64,000 nucleotides of DNA from Chryseobacterium sp. OV279 (GTDB lineage Bacteria; Bacteroidota; Bacteroidia; Flavobacteriales; Weeksellaceae): assembly GCF_900128945.1 (NCBI RefSeq), contig NZ_FQUD01000001.1, positions 930,001-994,000 on the forward strand, in the 5' to 3' direction. Under the pieces are notes generated by a model. The model was not told the origin of the DNA. It worked only from the letters and a program-made list of their open reading frames with translations, and ran no database searches. Within the stretch, counting starts at the first letter, position 1; the number at the start of each line of letters is the position of its first letter. The translations under genes and the position numbers were made by a program. This document shows positions 23,426 through 29,687 of this stretch, in pieces.

Positions 23426-24673
23426 CTAGTTGATATAAGAAGCATTAAAAGACATTGAAATAGGTCTGCAGGGCATGTCAATACCGGAGGTTGTTCCGTT
23501 ATTCACAGCTCTGGTCATTCTTACATCCAAAGTATGATTTCCTGCGGTAAGGAATTTTACGGTATTGATGGTAAATTGCGTGTTGGACCCTGCTGAAGCT
23601 TCCTGTGTGCGGAGGTAGCAGTCTGTAGCTACACCGTCAATATAAAGTCTTGCTTCATAAGTAGCCTGTCCTCCTCCGGCAGGGCTGCCTAAATAATCTA
23701 TTCCAAGCATGAAATTGATGAATAAAGTCTTACCACCTGCAGGAATTGTAATCGATTGAGAAGTTCCGGTTACGATAGTGGCACCAAGGTCATTCACGTT
23801 ATAATCAGCGCCGGTCGTACTGTTTACCGTAGCGGTGTTGATACTGGCCGGAGTAGGATTGGCTACCGTGACAATATTTCCTGTTGCATCCACTCCTATA
23901 GACTGTCCTGTTCCGATGGGGGAAGCAGAAGAAAGGTTGGTGAATTTTACCCCCGAAACATTGGCGGTACCGGAAGCAACTTCAAGTCTTGTATTGGGAG
24001 TTGTAGTACCTATCCCTACGTTTCCGTTACTCAACACGGTGATTTTTTCTGCTCCGTTAGCTTTTAAGCCAAGAATCCCTGTATTATTAGTTCCCAGGCT
24101 TAATTGGGTTGAACTTCCAGATGAATTAATCTGGGTCTGATTAGCATCATCCGTGTAAATATCAAGGTTAGCTGTTCCTCCGGTTAAGGTGACAGATCCT
24201 CTTGTGGATGCGGTTGTAGCGACTGCTCCTAAACCTGCGCTTGTGACAATTCCTACAGTGGTACCTCCGTTTACAAAAAGTAAAGGGCTTCCATTGGTGG
24301 TTACCGTTCTTTGCCCCGGCAATGTTCCGTCTGAGGTGTAAATATTCACAGGAGCGTCTATTTTAGTCCAGACTGTTCCGTTAAAATAATAATAGCCTGT
24401 TGCATCTATATTGGCAGCGGTACCAGCTAATGTTCCCGTTGCGATACTGTTGACATAGATCAGTGTTGAAATCGGCACTGAAGACATGCTTTGTGCTCTT
24501 TGTCTGTCTACCCTTGGGATTAGGAGACCATCTACATTGGTGGTGGCTCCGGTTGCATTCTTTGCCGTGATATCCAGCGTAGACAAAGGAGTATTGTTAT
24601 TAATTCCCGTCTGTGCCACGACAACTGAAATGCCCGCTAATAAAAATATAATTGAAAGTTGAAATCTTTTCAT
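23426..24673 (-). CDS. Secreted GIG-type paralogue B3
   Basis: The 415-residue protein has a signal peptide (MKRFQLSIIFLLAGISVVVA), then QTGINNNTPLSTLDITAK and a VDRQRAQSMSSVPISTLIYV block shared with B1 and B2. The middle carries NGNVGIGTTTPNTRLEVASG, a motif common on phage-tail-like and surface fibre proteins. The C-terminal ~130 residues form a beta sandwich (LYIDGVATDCYLRTQE, then FLTAGNHTLDVRMTRA) resembling C1q/TNF-like trimeric domains. It contains many Thr, Ser, Asn and Gly residues. Third gene of a tandem minus-strand triplet. Likely a trimeric surface or secreted adhesin; function unproven. Confidence 0.7.
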   Translation of the reverse strand: MKRFQLSIIFLLAGISVVVAQTGINNNTPLSTLDITAKNATGATTNVDGLLIPRVDRQRAQSMSSVPISTLIYVNSIATGTLAGTAANIDATGYYYFNGTVWTKIDAPVNIYTSDGTLPGQRTVTTNGSPLLFVNGGTTVGIVTSAGLGAVATTASTRGSVTLTGGTANLDIYTDDANQTQINSSGSSTQLSLGTNNTGILGLKANGAEKITVLSNGNVGIGTTTPNTRLEVASGTANVSGVKFTNLSSASPIGTGQSIGVDATGNIVTVANPTPASINTATVNSTTGADYNVNDLGATIVTGTSQSITIPAGGKTLFINFMLGIDYLGSPAGGGQATYEARLYIDGVATDCYLRTQEASAGSNTQFTINTVKFLTAGNHTLDVRMTRAVNNGTTSGIDMPCRPISMSFNASYIN

Positions 24674-24740
24674 GACGTAAGTTTAAGATAATGATTAATT
24701 TTCGCAATGCCTGGATTGCCCTACCTTATGGCGCTTAAGC

Positions 24741-25988
24741 TTAATTTAAATAAGAGGCATTAAATGACATCGATATCGGGGCACAAGTCATACCCGCTCC
24801 CGAAGTCGTTCCATTATTGAATGTTCTCTGCATTCTGACATCAATCGTGTGATTTCCGGCAGCCAAAAACTTAATCGTGCTGATGGTAAAAGACGCATTG
24901 GTACTTATACCCACTTCCTGAGTACGCATATAACAGTCTGTAGCCACTCCGTCTATATATAATCTCGCTTCGTAATAGGCTGTTCCGCTACCTGCCGGAT
25001 TATTGACGTAATCTACCCCAAGCATGAAATTGATAAATAAAGCTTTTCCACCCGTTGGGACAGTAATCGTCTGCGAAGTTCCGGATACGATGGTTGCAGC
25101 GAGATCGGTGACATTAAAGTTTGCCGCCGCTGTACTGTTTACAGAAGAAGTACTTACATTCGTTGGGCTGGGATTGGCAACGGTTACCAGATTTCCACTG
25201 GTATCCACCCCCAGGGCCTGTCCTGTACTTATTGGCGACGCAGAAGTAAGATTGGTGAATCTTAATCCGGATGTATTGGCCGTTCCTGATGCTAATTCAA
25301 ATGCTGAGGAAGGTGCTGTAGTTCCGATGCCTACATTTCCGTTACTTAAAAGAGTAAGTTTGTCTGTGCCGTTTGTTTTAAGGGCAAGAGGAGTTGCAGT
25401 GGTCGTTCCGATACTTAATTTTGTGGCAGTTCCCGAAGTATTGATCTGTGCTGCATTGGCATTGTCTACATAAGCATCCACTATATTCGTCCCGGAGGAT
25501 AAAGTCAGGGTGCCTCTTGTGGAGCCATTAGCAGAAAACCGTCCTTCTGTTGCTGTAGTGATAATTCCTACATTACTGGTTCCGTTGACAAAACTTACGG
25601 TATTTCCGTTAGTTGTAACTGTTCTCATTCCGCCTAAAGTACCGTCCGAGGTGTAGATATTATTAATAGGATTGAGTTTAATCCAGGAAGTTCCGTTATA
25701 ATAGTAATATCCGGGTGCATCTATATTAGCAGCAGTACCGGTTTGGGCTCCTGTAGCAATGCTGTTTACATAGATCATGGTGGAAACCGGAACACTGCTC
25801 ATGCTTTGCGCCCGTTGCCTGTCCACTCGGGGTACTAAAATTCCATCTACATCCGTGGAAGTGCCTGTCGCATTTTTAGCGGTAATATCTAATGTGGTGA
25901 GTGGGTTGTTATTATTGAGTCCCATCTGTGCAATGATGAGTGAACAACCGAAAATAGAAAGTATGATGGAGAATTGTATTCTTTTCAT
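24741..25988 (-). CDS. Secreted GIG-type paralogue B2
   Basis: The start at 25988 (MKRIQFSIILSIFGC) is chosen because both sister genes start MKR-[FV]-Q; an ATG at 26015 lies in the leader. The 415-residue protein repeats the architecture of B1 and B3: signal peptide, LNNNNPLTTLDITAK, VDRQRAQSMSSVPVSTMIYV, a central NGNVGIGTTAPSSAFELASG, and a C-terminal LYIDGVATDCYMRTQE sandwich ending FNASYLN. It lies 63 bp after B1 and 67 bp before B3. It probably shares their unknown surface role; the divergence may tune binding. Confidence 0.7.
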   Translation of the reverse strand: MKRIQFSIILSIFGCSLIIAQMGLNNNNPLTTLDITAKNATGTSTDVDGILVPRVDRQRAQSMSSVPVSTMIYVNSIATGAQTGTAANIDAPGYYYYNGTSWIKLNPINNIYTSDGTLGGMRTVTTNGNTVSFVNGTSNVGIITTATEGRFSANGSTRGTLTLSSGTNIVDAYVDNANAAQINTSGTATKLSIGTTTATPLALKTNGTDKLTLLSNGNVGIGTTAPSSAFELASGTANTSGLRFTNLTSASPISTGQALGVDTSGNLVTVANPSPTNVSTSSVNSTAAANFNVTDLAATIVSGTSQTITVPTGGKALFINFMLGVDYVNNPAGSGTAYYEARLYIDGVATDCYMRTQEVGISTNASFTISTIKFLAAGNHTIDVRMQRTFNNGTTSGAGMTCAPISMSFNASYLN

Positions 25989-26051
25989 GGGAAATTTTTT
26001 AAGATGAAAATTCATTTTTTACAGTAAGAAACTGTGCTGATGCTATTTAAA

Positions 26052-27302
26052 TTAATTCAAATAAGTAGCATTAAATGACATAGAAATCGGGGCACAAAGC
26101 ATATTTGTTCCTGAAGCCACCCCGTTATTAAACGTTCTTGTCATTCTTACATCTATTGTATGATTTCCGGCTGCAAGAAATTTCACCGTATTAAAACTGA
26201 ACTGGGCACTGAATCCGCCCGGTCCGTATTCCTGCGTACGCATATAGCAGTCTGTAGCAACGCCATCTATGTATAATCTTGCTTCATAATAGGATGCACC
26301 GCTTCCGGCAGGATTGCTTCCATAATCAATCCCCAGCATGAAATTGATGAATAAAGCTTTTCCGCCTGTGGGAATGGTGACAGGCTGTGAAGTTCCCGGC
26401 ACCATAGTCACCGTGGTGTCATTCACGTTGAAATTGCTTCCCGTTGTACTGTTTACCGATGCGGTTGTTACACTGGCAGCAGTCGGGTTGGCCACTGTTA
26501 TTACATTTCCGAGATTGTCTACCCCTAAGGTTTGTCCTGTGCTGATAGGAGATGCCGAATTAAGGTTGGTTAATCTTGTCCCTGAAACATTGGCTGTTCC
26601 AGAAGATATTTCGAATTTTGTATTGGGTGATGTAGTTCCGATCCCTACATTTCCACCGCTTAAAACAGTTAGTCTTTCAATACTGTTTGTTTTCAGTCCA
26701 AGTGGAGTAGCGTTGGTAGAACCTATGCTGAGTTTAGTCGAATTTCCGGAAGCATTGAACTGAGCGATGCCGTTGTTTTCTACATAGTAATCAATATTCG
26801 CAGAGCCTCCCACCAGATTTAAAAAACCTCTTGAAGAACCGTTGGCAGACAGTGCACCTTCCGTTGCAGAAGTAATTACTTTTACATTGTTGCCGCCGTT
26901 TACAAAGGTTAAAAGATTTCCGTTGGTGGTAACCGTTCGTGAGCTGTTTAAAGTTCCATCAGAATTATAGATGTTCAGGGAAGTAGCCAGCTTTGTCCAG
27001 AGGGTTCCGTTAAAATAATAATATCCTAAAGAATTTATATTAGCTGCTGTTCCGGCCGGAGTTCCTGTAGCGATACTGTTTACATAAATCAGTGTAGATA
27101 CGGGAATGGCGGACATGTTTTGCGCCCTTTGTCTGTCTACCCGAGGGACCAACAATCCATCCGTATTGCCAGAAGTTCCTGTAGCATCCTTTGCAGTGAT
27201 GTCCAGTGTGGAGGCGGGAGATGGATTGTTTATACCTACTTGCGCATTGATGAAAGCAAAGTTCACCAATAAGAATATCATAGAGAATTGTACTCTTTTC
27301 AT
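26052..27302 (-). CDS. Secreted GIG-type paralogue B1
   Basis: The 416-residue protein starts with a signal peptide (MKRVQFSMIFLLVNFAFINA), then QVGINNPSPASTLDITAK and the shared VDRQRAQNMSAIPVSTLIYV block. The central motif is GGNVGIGTTSPNTKFEISSG and the C terminus is the same beta sandwich with LYIDGVATDCYMRTQE and FNATYLN. It is the first gene of the B triplet. AAGATTAAT and ATTAATCTT half-sites lie 17-52 bp upstream of its start. Lengths of B1, B2 and B3 agree within one residue, indicating strong constraint on the fold. Confidence 0.7.
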   Translation of the reverse strand: MKRVQFSMIFLLVNFAFINAQVGINNPSPASTLDITAKDATGTSGNTDGLLVPRVDRQRAQNMSAIPVSTLIYVNSIATGTPAGTAANINSLGYYYFNGTLWTKLATSLNIYNSDGTLNSSRTVTTNGNLLTFVNGGNNVKVITSATEGALSANGSSRGFLNLVGGSANIDYYVENNGIAQFNASGNSTKLSIGSTNATPLGLKTNSIERLTVLSGGNVGIGTTSPNTKFEISSGTANVSGTRLTNLNSASPISTGQTLGVDNLGNVITVANPTAASVTTASVNSTTGSNFNVNDTTVTMVPGTSQPVTIPTGGKALFINFMLGIDYGSNPAGSGASYYEARLYIDGVATDCYMRTQEYGPGGFSAQFSFNTVKFLAAGNHTIDVRMTRTFNNGVASGTNMLCAPISMSFNATYLN

Positions 27303-27419: not shown

Positions 27420-27740
27420 TTATTTTTCCTCTTCCTGCTCATCCTCATCGTCATTTTCATCATCTTCGTACTGTTCCAGATAATAGGTGAAAGTGAAATC
27501 TTCTCTTTCATCCTCTGCATCTTCCAAAGTAGTCAGCAGATCTTCAAAAATCTCCAGTTGGTCTACCGTCATATTAACGAATTCAAGGTGAAGCGGCATT
27601 TCCAGTTCTCCTGTAATCACATCAGACAGCGCATCCAGATTGTCCCCGAAGTATTCAGGAAGCGTTACCTTTTCCTTTAATTGGGCATAAAAATCTTCGT
27701 AGTCGCCGATGTCTGTAAAATCGATATATATTGTCTTCAT
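27420..27740 (-). CDS. Barstar-family ribonuclease inhibitor
   Basis: The 106-residue protein matches barstar: YFGDNLDALSDVITGELEMP aligns with the barnase-binding helix. Asp36 and Asp40 correspond to barstar Asp35 and Asp39, while the usual Trp between them is Ser39. The C terminus is an unusually acidic tail (EDDENDDEDEQEEEK) absent from classical barstar. It lacks a signal peptide, so it acts in the cytoplasm. Its start overlaps the stop of the metalloprotease gene by four bases, and the barnase gene lies just upstream of that. The three-gene order argues that it is the immunity protein for that RNase. Confidence 0.9.
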   Translation of the reverse strand: MKTIYIDFTDIGDYEDFYAQLKEKVTLPEYFGDNLDALSDVITGELEMPLHLEFVNMTVDQLEIFEDLLTTLEDAEDEREDFTFTYYLEQYEDDENDDEDEQEEEK

Positions 27741-28351
27741 ATAGAATTAAATTTCCAGTTTTTACTGATTAGAAAAGTTTTGCATTTTGGGCAGAAATCG
27801 GTTTCCTCATCTGTAGGGTTTCCGCCTTCTGCATCCCTCATAAAACATGTTTTTTCCGGGCAGTGTTTCAGGCCCTGAGTATGTCCGAGTTCGTGAATGG
27901 CTATTTTAAAGAACTGCTCATCCGCATTCTTTTTGTCCAGCCTGTATTTTGAAGCTACGCAGGCTTTTCCGGGTCTGTAACCGAGTCCCATGATTCCGTA
28001 GTCTTTTATTTTTCCTTTGGTGACGCTGATATCTTTTGAAGTGAGGCCAATGGTGACAAAACCGTCTTTTGTCCGGCTGTCCAGAAACTTAATGATAGAA
28101 TCTGCCCGATAACGGTTTCTTTCTTTATAATAGGCATTGTCCGGAAAATCAATAGCCTCAAGGATTTTTATATTGGGATAGATTTTCCTGATTCCTTCGG
28201 CTGTTTTCAATACATTTTCAGAACTGAAATCTTTGAAAGGCTGAATCAGTATGGTCATCGGCTTAGTGCTTTTTACAGGCTGCTGTTTCTCCGAACATGA
28301 AAATGCCAGGAATACCATTGCCATCAGACCATAAAAACTATTGCTTTTCAA
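27737..28351 (-). CDS. Archaemetzincin-like metalloprotease, lipoprotein
   Basis: The 204-residue protein begins with a lipoprotein signal whose lipobox is LAFSC (Cys19). Near the C terminus, HELGHTQGLKH (residues 153-163) is the zinc and catalytic motif. It is followed by Cys164, CFM at 169-171 and CPKC at 187-190, the cysteine pattern typical of archaemetzincins. Archaemetzincins are usually cytoplasmic, so a lipidated form is notable. It overlaps barnase by 14 bp upstream and barstar by 4 bp downstream, meaning tight translational coupling. It may process or release the membrane-tethered RNase; that is inference. No other protease role is indicated. Confidence 0.85.
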   Translation of the reverse strand: MKSNSFYGLMAMVFLAFSCSEKQQPVKSTKPMTILIQPFKDFSSENVLKTAEGIRKIYPNIKILEAIDFPDNAYYKERNRYRADSIIKFLDSRTKDGFVTIGLTSKDISVTKGKIKDYGIMGLGYRPGKACVASKYRLDKKNADEQFFKIAIHELGHTQGLKHCPEKTCFMRDAEGGNPTDEETDFCPKCKTFLISKNWKFNSI

Positions 28352-28853
28352 AACTCTTGTAATGGTTTTTAGTCAGATAAACATCACCGTTTTTGGTAAA
28401 AATGATTCGGTCAGAATTTCGGTTTCCACAGCTGTAGTTGACATCTGCTTCAAAATATTTTTCACCCTGGGGAAGTCTTTTTTCACGGTTGCTGAAATGG
28501 TCACCACCAATAGCTTTTCCCGGCAGTACATCGCAGAGATTACCTTTTGAAGGATTCCAGCCAAGCTTTCTTGCCTCATTTTTAGTGATATAATAATCCG
28601 GAAGCCTGTGATTCTGCTTCACATAAGTAATGACTGTTTTTTCCTCTGTCAGCTGGTCAATAGCCTGTGACGAAGAATTTCCGCCGGTACTTTGAGAATC
28701 CGTAGCAATGTTTCCGGTGCTGGAAGCTTCTGTTTTTGTGATCTCCGTATTTCCCTTTTTGTCTGCAATAAAATTATTGTAGATATACATCACAGACATC
28801 CCGAAGAGAAGTCCCAGACAAATAAAAAATACCGATCTTATTTTACCATTCAT
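28338..28853 (-). CDS. Barnase-family ribonuclease, membrane-tethered
   Basis: The 171-residue protein has an N-terminal transmembrane helix (residues 7-30), a Ser/Thr-rich linker (~31-65) and a barnase domain. All catalytic residues are present: Lys91 in YITKNEARKLGW, Glu135 in EADVNY, Arg145 and Arg149 in NRNSDR, and His164 in NHYKSF, matching barnase Lys27, Glu73, Arg83, Arg87 and His102. GNLCDVLPGKAIGGDHFSNR is diagnostic. Classical barnase is fully secreted; here an uncleaved anchor or a late cleavage is implied. It heads a barnase, metzincin, barstar operon 39 bp from nadE. Confidence 0.92.
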   Translation of the reverse strand: MNGKIRSVFFICLGLLFGMSVMYIYNNFIADKKGNTEITKTEASSTGNIATDSQSTGGNSSSQAIDQLTEEKTVITYVKQNHRLPDYYITKNEARKLGWNPSKGNLCDVLPGKAIGGDHFSNREKRLPQGEKYFEADVNYSCGNRNSDRIIFTKNGDVYLTKNHYKSFEKQ

Positions 28854-28892: not shown

Positions 28893-29687
28893 TTAGCTTT
28901 CTCTCCACTCCTCAGGAATATCACAAACCGGGATAGGATTGATTTTATGTTGAGCTGCTTTGTGCATTCTGTCAAAAATTAAAAAGACTTCTTTGTCTCG
29001 CCCTTCATAATCGTTGGCAGTTTTAGTTCCGTATTCCTTCTGGATTTTTTCCAGTTCAGGATAGGTAGCTCCAATTTGTTGTTCATCCGTTCTGTCCACA
29101 TCCCAAAGTCCGTCTGTAGGAATCGCTTCCTGAATGTTTTTAACCAGATTTAATGATTTTGCAAGCGTATACACTTCTGTTTTGTAAAGGTCTGCGATAG
29201 GAGAGACATCTACACCGCCATCACCATATTTTGTATAAAACCCAATACCGAAATCCTCCACTTTATTTCCTGTTCCGCATACCAGAAGACCGTTGATCTG
29301 TCCGTAATAATACAGGGTAAGCATTCTCAAACGAGATCTCGTATTGGCAAAAGCCAGTTTCTCATTAGGATACAGATCATCTTTTACATCAAATGCTTTA
29401 TAAAGTTCTTCAAAAGCAGGAGTAAGGTTCACAGACATTGCTTCCACATTAGGAAACCTGGATTTCAGATCATTCATATGCTCCCAGGCACGGTCTATTT
29501 GATCCGGTTTCTGGCGTATCGGCATTTCAATCAGAAGGGTTTTTAAGCCTGTCATGGCAGCAAGCGTAGAAACCACACCGGAATCTACACCTCCGGAAAC
29601 TCCAATGACATATCCGTTTACTTTAGCTTTTACAGCATAATCTTTTAACCACTGTACAATATGATCTGTTACTTTTTGAGTCTGCAT
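28893..29687 (-). CDS. nadE: NAD synthetase (ammonia-dependent)
   Basis: The 264-residue protein has the ATP pyrophosphatase loop SGGVDSG at residues 31-37 and the later GTGNKVEDFGIGFYTKYGDGG segment of NadE. It converts nicotinic acid adenine dinucleotide, ATP and ammonia to NAD in the cytoplasm. No glutaminase domain is present, so ammonia is the direct donor. The barnase operon follows 39 bp downstream on the same strand and could be co-transcribed, which would be an odd pairing of a housekeeping gene with a toxin. The upstream region contains the structured element at 29815-29892. Confidence 0.93.
   Translation of the reverse strand: MQTQKVTDHIVQWLKDYAVKAKVNGYVIGVSGGVDSGVVSTLAAMTGLKTLLIEMPIRQKPDQIDRAWEHMNDLKSRFPNVEAMSVNLTPAFEELYKAFDVKDDLYPNEKLAFANTRSRLRMLTLYYYGQINGLLVCGTGNKVEDFGIGFYTKYGDGGVDVSPIADLYKTEVYTLAKSLNLVKNIQEAIPTDGLWDVDRTDEQQIGATYPELEKIQKEYGTKTANDYEGRDKEVFLIFDRMHKAAQHKINPIPVCDIPEEWRES

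Follow-up and report, generated by a model that had tools for sequence, protein, structure and literature searches.

Gene composition of the locus

The analysed window, a stretch of 64,000 nucleotides from the genome of Chryseobacterium sp. OV279, contains three overlapping genes on its minus strand. The first encodes a barnase-type RNase of 171 aa (28338..28853, minus strand; PF00545, 3e-15), the second a lipoprotein-type, archaemetzincin-like metalloprotease of family M54 of 204 aa with a TTG start (27737..28351, minus strand; PF07998, 1e-8), and the third a barstar-family inhibitor of 106 aa with an acidic C-terminal tail (27420..27740, minus strand; PF01337, 3e-20). The coordinates confirm the order RNase, metalloprotease, RNase inhibitor given in the original prediction, as well as the overlaps of 14 bp between barnase and metzincin and 4 bp between metzincin and barstar. 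In the latter, an ATGA overlap kept in 61 of 72 relatives, the barstar start lies inside the metzincin stop. Of 72 relatives, 57 share the TTG start, among them some in which the metzincin gene is set apart from barnase. The three genes are probably transcribed together, and we propose that the metzincin is translationally coupled to the barnase-barstar pair.

The trio lies downstream of nadE (NAD synthase; 28893..29687, minus strand), a conserved upstream neighbor that anchors the locus at one chromosomal site and is outside the proposed system. Directly beyond barstar, the window holds three tandem paralogous ORFs of 415-424 aa (23426-27302) with signal-like N-termini and a repeat-rich, surface-protein character.

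A predicted tethered barnase

The RNase contains equivalents of barnase residues K27, R59, E73, R83, R87 and H102, all of which are invariant in 106 of 106 relatives; the catalytic set is thus complete, as originally predicted. The membrane helix and linker ascribed to its N-terminus are also recovered in the predicted structural model, which is composed of one signal-anchor helix (residues ~3-30), a disordered linker (~32-61) and a confidently predicted barnase domain (74-170) that matches barnase structures with an rmsd of 1.2-1.5 A and a TM-score to the target of ~0.9. The helix is conserved and has no obvious cleavage site. The linker evolves fast and has no conserved site, with a dN/dS of 0.21 compared to 0.05 for the barnase core.

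Two cysteines of the RNase domain, Cys107 and Cys142, correspond to barnase positions 43 and 80, and neither varies in any of the 106 relatives. The best match of the protein, in sequence as well as in fold, is 1bne, an A43C/S80C mutant of barnase with an engineered disulfide. By their positions, the two cysteines could form a disulfide, and since a disulfide fits an oxidising compartment we take the RNase to be extracytoplasmic. Evidence that the RNase domain stays inside the cell had been named as a point that would speak against the original prediction; the signal-anchor and the invariant cysteine pair at engineered-disulfide sites instead suggest that it is very probably exported from the cytoplasm.

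In one lineage, the N-terminus of the barnase (L018:1044-1508) ends in a possible lipobox (FVSNC) that replaces the usual anchor. Positive charges flank the anchor on both sides, and its topology is therefore uncertain from sequence. The charges after the helix, together with a cytosolic and acidic barstar, would be in keeping with a barnase that faces the cytoplasm and acts in an intracellular toxin-antitoxin module for stress or anti-phage defense. We consider such a module extremely improbable, given how well the invariant cysteines fit an oxidising compartment and that the L018 lineage may carry a lipid anchor in place of the helix.

Barnase and barstar are a textbook pair, in which two aspartates of barstar contact and fill the active site of barnase. 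Both key aspartates are kept here, in agreement with the original prediction: the equivalent of D35 is found in 105 of 106 relatives and that of D39 in 106 of 106. The extra acidic tail noted in the window is real and common to the lineage, with a median length of 14 aa and a content of 71% D/E. The dN/dS of barstar is 0.06. A second, weak barstar-domain match (L232, G000:C2:878088-878324) is located within a larger ORF, beside Sir2-like and flotillin-like genes.

A predicted lipidated archaemetzincin-like protein

The metalloprotease carries the lipobox FLAFSC and the motif HELGHTQGLKHC-X4-C-X-M-X15-C-X2-C, so that the zinc motif, the archaemetzincin cysteine set and the lipoprotein signal of the original prediction were all observed. 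Across 19 diverse relatives, the zinc motif, the methionine and the four cysteines do not vary. Compared with the fingerprint HEXXHXXGXXHCX4CXMX17CXXC (PMC3427221), all named residues are present and the last spacer is X15 rather than X17. The Pfam score of 35.5 is above the gathering threshold of 24.4, and the NCBIfam archaemetzincin model gives 116.5 bits, which falls short of the curated cut-off of 145. The predicted structure is closest to solved archaemetzincins, its top five PDB matches being archaemetzincins and a related zinc peptidase.

Nearly all metzincin orthologues share the lipobox cysteine. Lone relatives in other Bacteroidota families mostly have a lipoprotein-like signal too, indicating that lipidation is older than the operon and not special to it. 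The original prediction had presented the lipidated protease as new, which holds insofar as the literature searched gave no account of a lipidated archaemetzincin, but not as a feature of this locus, since stand-alone relatives also bear the signal. Many members of the genus also encode, at other positions, a remote paralogue of ~294-312 aa with a lipoprotein-like signal (for example L002, G000:C10:57889-58194).

The dN/dS of the metzincin domain is 0.08, and the metzincin located between barnase and barstar is clearly under strong purifying selection. Its sequence suggests an envelope location and peptidase activity. Archaeal archaemetzincins were inactive in standard assays (PMC3427221), and for this reason peptidase activity cannot be assumed; a Thermococcus archaemetzincin is reported to be active (PMC4681839).

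Distribution and history of the three genes

We surveyed 197 genomes of the Weeksellaceae, the family to which the window belongs, and identified the barnase in 160, barstar domains in 165 and strong metzincin matches in 48. Barnase and barstar are usually adjacent to each other and to nadE, and most genomes of the family have the two genes without the metzincin. No barnase of this type was found in ~167 Flavobacteriales genomes sampled outside the family, which confines the comparison to the family itself. The barnase-barstar pair is a widespread, vertically inherited core pair of the family. In some genomes of genus g2 (L092 and L093), barnase and barstar lie at separate chromosomal sites.

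Forty-three of the 48 metzincins occupy the slot between barnase and barstar, usually beside nadE, and every one of them is flanked by both partners. A chance neighborhood was therefore rejected, and the three-gene order is neither random nor limited to this genome; a conserved order was the support that the original prediction asked of a neighborhood search. The slot is filled in this way across about eight genera, and the named relatives with the full trio include Chryseobacterium, Epilithonimonas, Halpernia, Cloacibacterium and Soonwooa. The slot metzincins form one clade (98% SH-aLRT) that excludes the other five, which are encoded elsewhere; this suggests a single entry of the metzincin into the slot.

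When mapped onto a tree of nadE, barnase and barstar, the presence or absence of the metzincin changed at least 21 times, at least 15 of these changes being forced by strongly supported branches. Parsimony cannot separate gain from loss in these counts, and many sequences of the tree were chosen for carrying the metzincin, which biases its frequency upward. Losses do happen, since relics or broken copies were found at several loci (L038, L039, L044, L048, L064, L073 and L076), with clear breaks in genomes G010, G020 and G043 and 3' relics in G060, G120, G183 and G184. The possibility that approximately ten metzincins are pseudogenes was considered and rejected, most of the in-frame stops being natural ends. 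The history of the metzincin is thus one of a single entry and repeated loss, the barnase remaining intact in every case examined.

The gap between barnase and barstar also takes other inserts. An extra piece of 440 bp, considered as a fourth gene of the system, was rejected as such: it is an ORF for a GIY-YIG endonuclease (L035:2023-2427) inserted just after the barnase stop and flanked by inverted repeats (GTCATTGCGAGGA...AAGCAATC). A GIY-YIG ORF is present at similar loci (L007, L008, L010, L012, L014, L017, L019, L037, L044, L048 and L061), and in at least one case it replaces the metzincin in a very close relative (L035 versus L105). Half-site footprints of the element seem to persist in L009, L013, L015 and L016, and the half-site pattern of its inverted repeat has seven exact copies elsewhere in the genome of the window. 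In some genomes of one genus (L087-L089), the gap holds ~5 kb with an outer-membrane efflux gene (TolC), an HlyD gene and two ABC-2 transporter genes. The gap is therefore permissive, and gene order alone becomes weaker evidence of function.

Both the GIY-YIG element and the TolC-HlyD-ABC-2 efflux cassette speak for the view that the metzincin is a lipoprotein with no relation to its neighbors, which came to lie in a gap tolerant of insertions and is merely carried by their transcript, as do its relatives outside the slot, which are lone genes with no barnase or barstar nearby. We regard this explanation as rather unlikely, as the metzincin holds one slot across about eight genera, is always accompanied there by both partners, and retains the stop/start overlap that joins it to barstar.

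Does the metzincin release the RNase?

The original prediction proposed that the protease releases or activates the anchored RNase, i.e. that the lipidated metzincin cleaves the barnase linker to yield a soluble enzyme, as a maturation or activation protease. The fixed order of the overlapping genes, the conserved metzincin-barstar overlap, the constraint on the metzincin (dN/dS ~0.08) and the predicted presence of both proteins in the envelope are consistent with this proposal. Evolutionary distances of metzincin and barnase are also tightly correlated (0.86, compared to 0.72 and 0.69 for metzincin or barnase against nadE). The higher value could mean functional coupling, but linkage or exchange of nadE explains it equally well.

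Under the release model, changes in the RNase or its linker, or their relaxation, would be predicted upon loss of the protease, and none were seen. Most genomes lack the metzincin, and through the at least 15 strongly supported changes in its presence the catalytic residues remained intact in 106 of 106 barnases. Linker length is the same with or without the metzincin (Mann-Whitney p 0.22), with no signal in independent pairs either, few of which are informative, and the freely evolving linker offers no conserved site. The protease is therefore not favored as an activator, and the proposed release is unsupported. We judge cleavage of the linker as the task of the metzincin to be unlikely, although release may still be a conditional function. 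That strains with the archaemetzincin use it as a dedicated, lipid-anchored processing protease of the tethered barnase at the envelope, converting a membrane-bound enzyme into a released one, appears distinctly unlikely to us. If true, family M54 would gain a bacterial envelope substrate, and the three genes would constitute a switchable RNase-release system.

A proposed tethered envelope RNase with an optional peptidase

One alternative offered in the original prediction was a contact-dependent or secreted toxin. Polymorphic toxin systems are known to use barnase and barstar as toxin and immunity protein (PMC3482391), and the order of toxin followed by immunity gene is present here. The 171-aa protein, however, consists of helix, linker and RNase only, with no trafficking or delivery domain, and it displays no C-terminal polymorphism, the same RNase domain being conserved across the family. 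No CdiA/CdiB two-partner secretion genes were found at the locus, where the neighbors are nadE and unrelated genes and no ORF is of CdiA size. The locus is also core, strongly conserved, vertically inherited and fixed beside nadE without signs of mobility. An interbacterial toxin-immunity system, whether contact-dependent or secreted, is thus unsupported, and we consider it highly unlikely.

The explanation that we favor, with somewhat better than even confidence, is that of a tethered envelope barnase acting on extracytoplasmic RNA, a cytosolic barstar and an optional lipidated peptidase. Tethered to the inner membrane, the barnase would cleave RNA within the envelope, either to scavenge it or to clear it away; scavenging is suggested by analogy with secreted RNases. 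Barstar in the cytosol would guard the cell against RNase awaiting export, acting as a safety catch. The product of the middle gene would be a lipid-anchored archaemetzincin, putatively a peptidase in the same envelope compartment as the barnase and dispensable for the working of the RNase. The repeated changes in its presence next to an intact barnase, the unchanged linker and the other inserts in the gap point to an optional accessory rather than an obligate activator.

To our knowledge, the natural role of barnase-barstar pairs in Gram-negative bacteria is little studied. The locus presents a barnase, predicted to be tethered, that occurs family-wide and has a natural cysteine pair exactly at the sites that engineers chose for a stabilising disulfide. 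An M54 archaemetzincin, a type of protein whose natural substrates are poorly known, is here linked to a concrete gene partner and a probable compartment, in strains that grow easily. Close relatives with and without the metzincin provide a ready natural comparison.

Comparison with known systems

Each of the three families is already known, and a non-exhaustive literature search turned up no account of the three genes together or of a lipidated archaemetzincin. The barnase-barstar pair resembles that of Bacillus amyloliquefaciens in its domain (~53% identity in the fold match), in retaining all key catalytic and inhibitor residues, and probably in the logic of an exported RNase with a cytosolic inhibitor. 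Barnase of B. amyloliquefaciens is a released enzyme, whereas the RNase described here has a predicted uncleaved membrane anchor and a linker. Its cysteines at positions 43 and 80 are invariant; in the Bacillus enzyme cysteine occurs there only in engineered mutants. The adjacency of the two genes, the optional protease gene that separates them and the acidic barstar tail also set the locus apart from the Bacillus pair.

The metzincin shares with M54 archaemetzincins (AfAmzA, 4axq/3zvs; MkAmzA, 2x7m) the fold, with a TM-score of 0.77-0.80 to AfAmzA, the HEXXHXXGXXHC motif, the methionine and the four-cysteine set. It differs from them in its lipoprotein signal, a last spacer of 15 instead of 17 residues, an NCBIfam score below the cut-off and its barnase-barstar operon. 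Metzincin lipoproteins of the TIGR03952 (BF0631) type are likewise lipidated zinc metzincins of Bacteroidota, but the match to them is weak (E 0.02) and they constitute a different family. Finally, Zhang et al. 2012 (PMC3482391) discuss the simple pair of barnase and barstar genes as an incipient toxin-immunity order. Like such pairs, the locus has a toxin gene followed by an immunity gene and no large delivery protein; unlike them, it is a fixed chromosomal core locus with a predicted membrane-anchored RNase and an optional metalloprotease gene in between.
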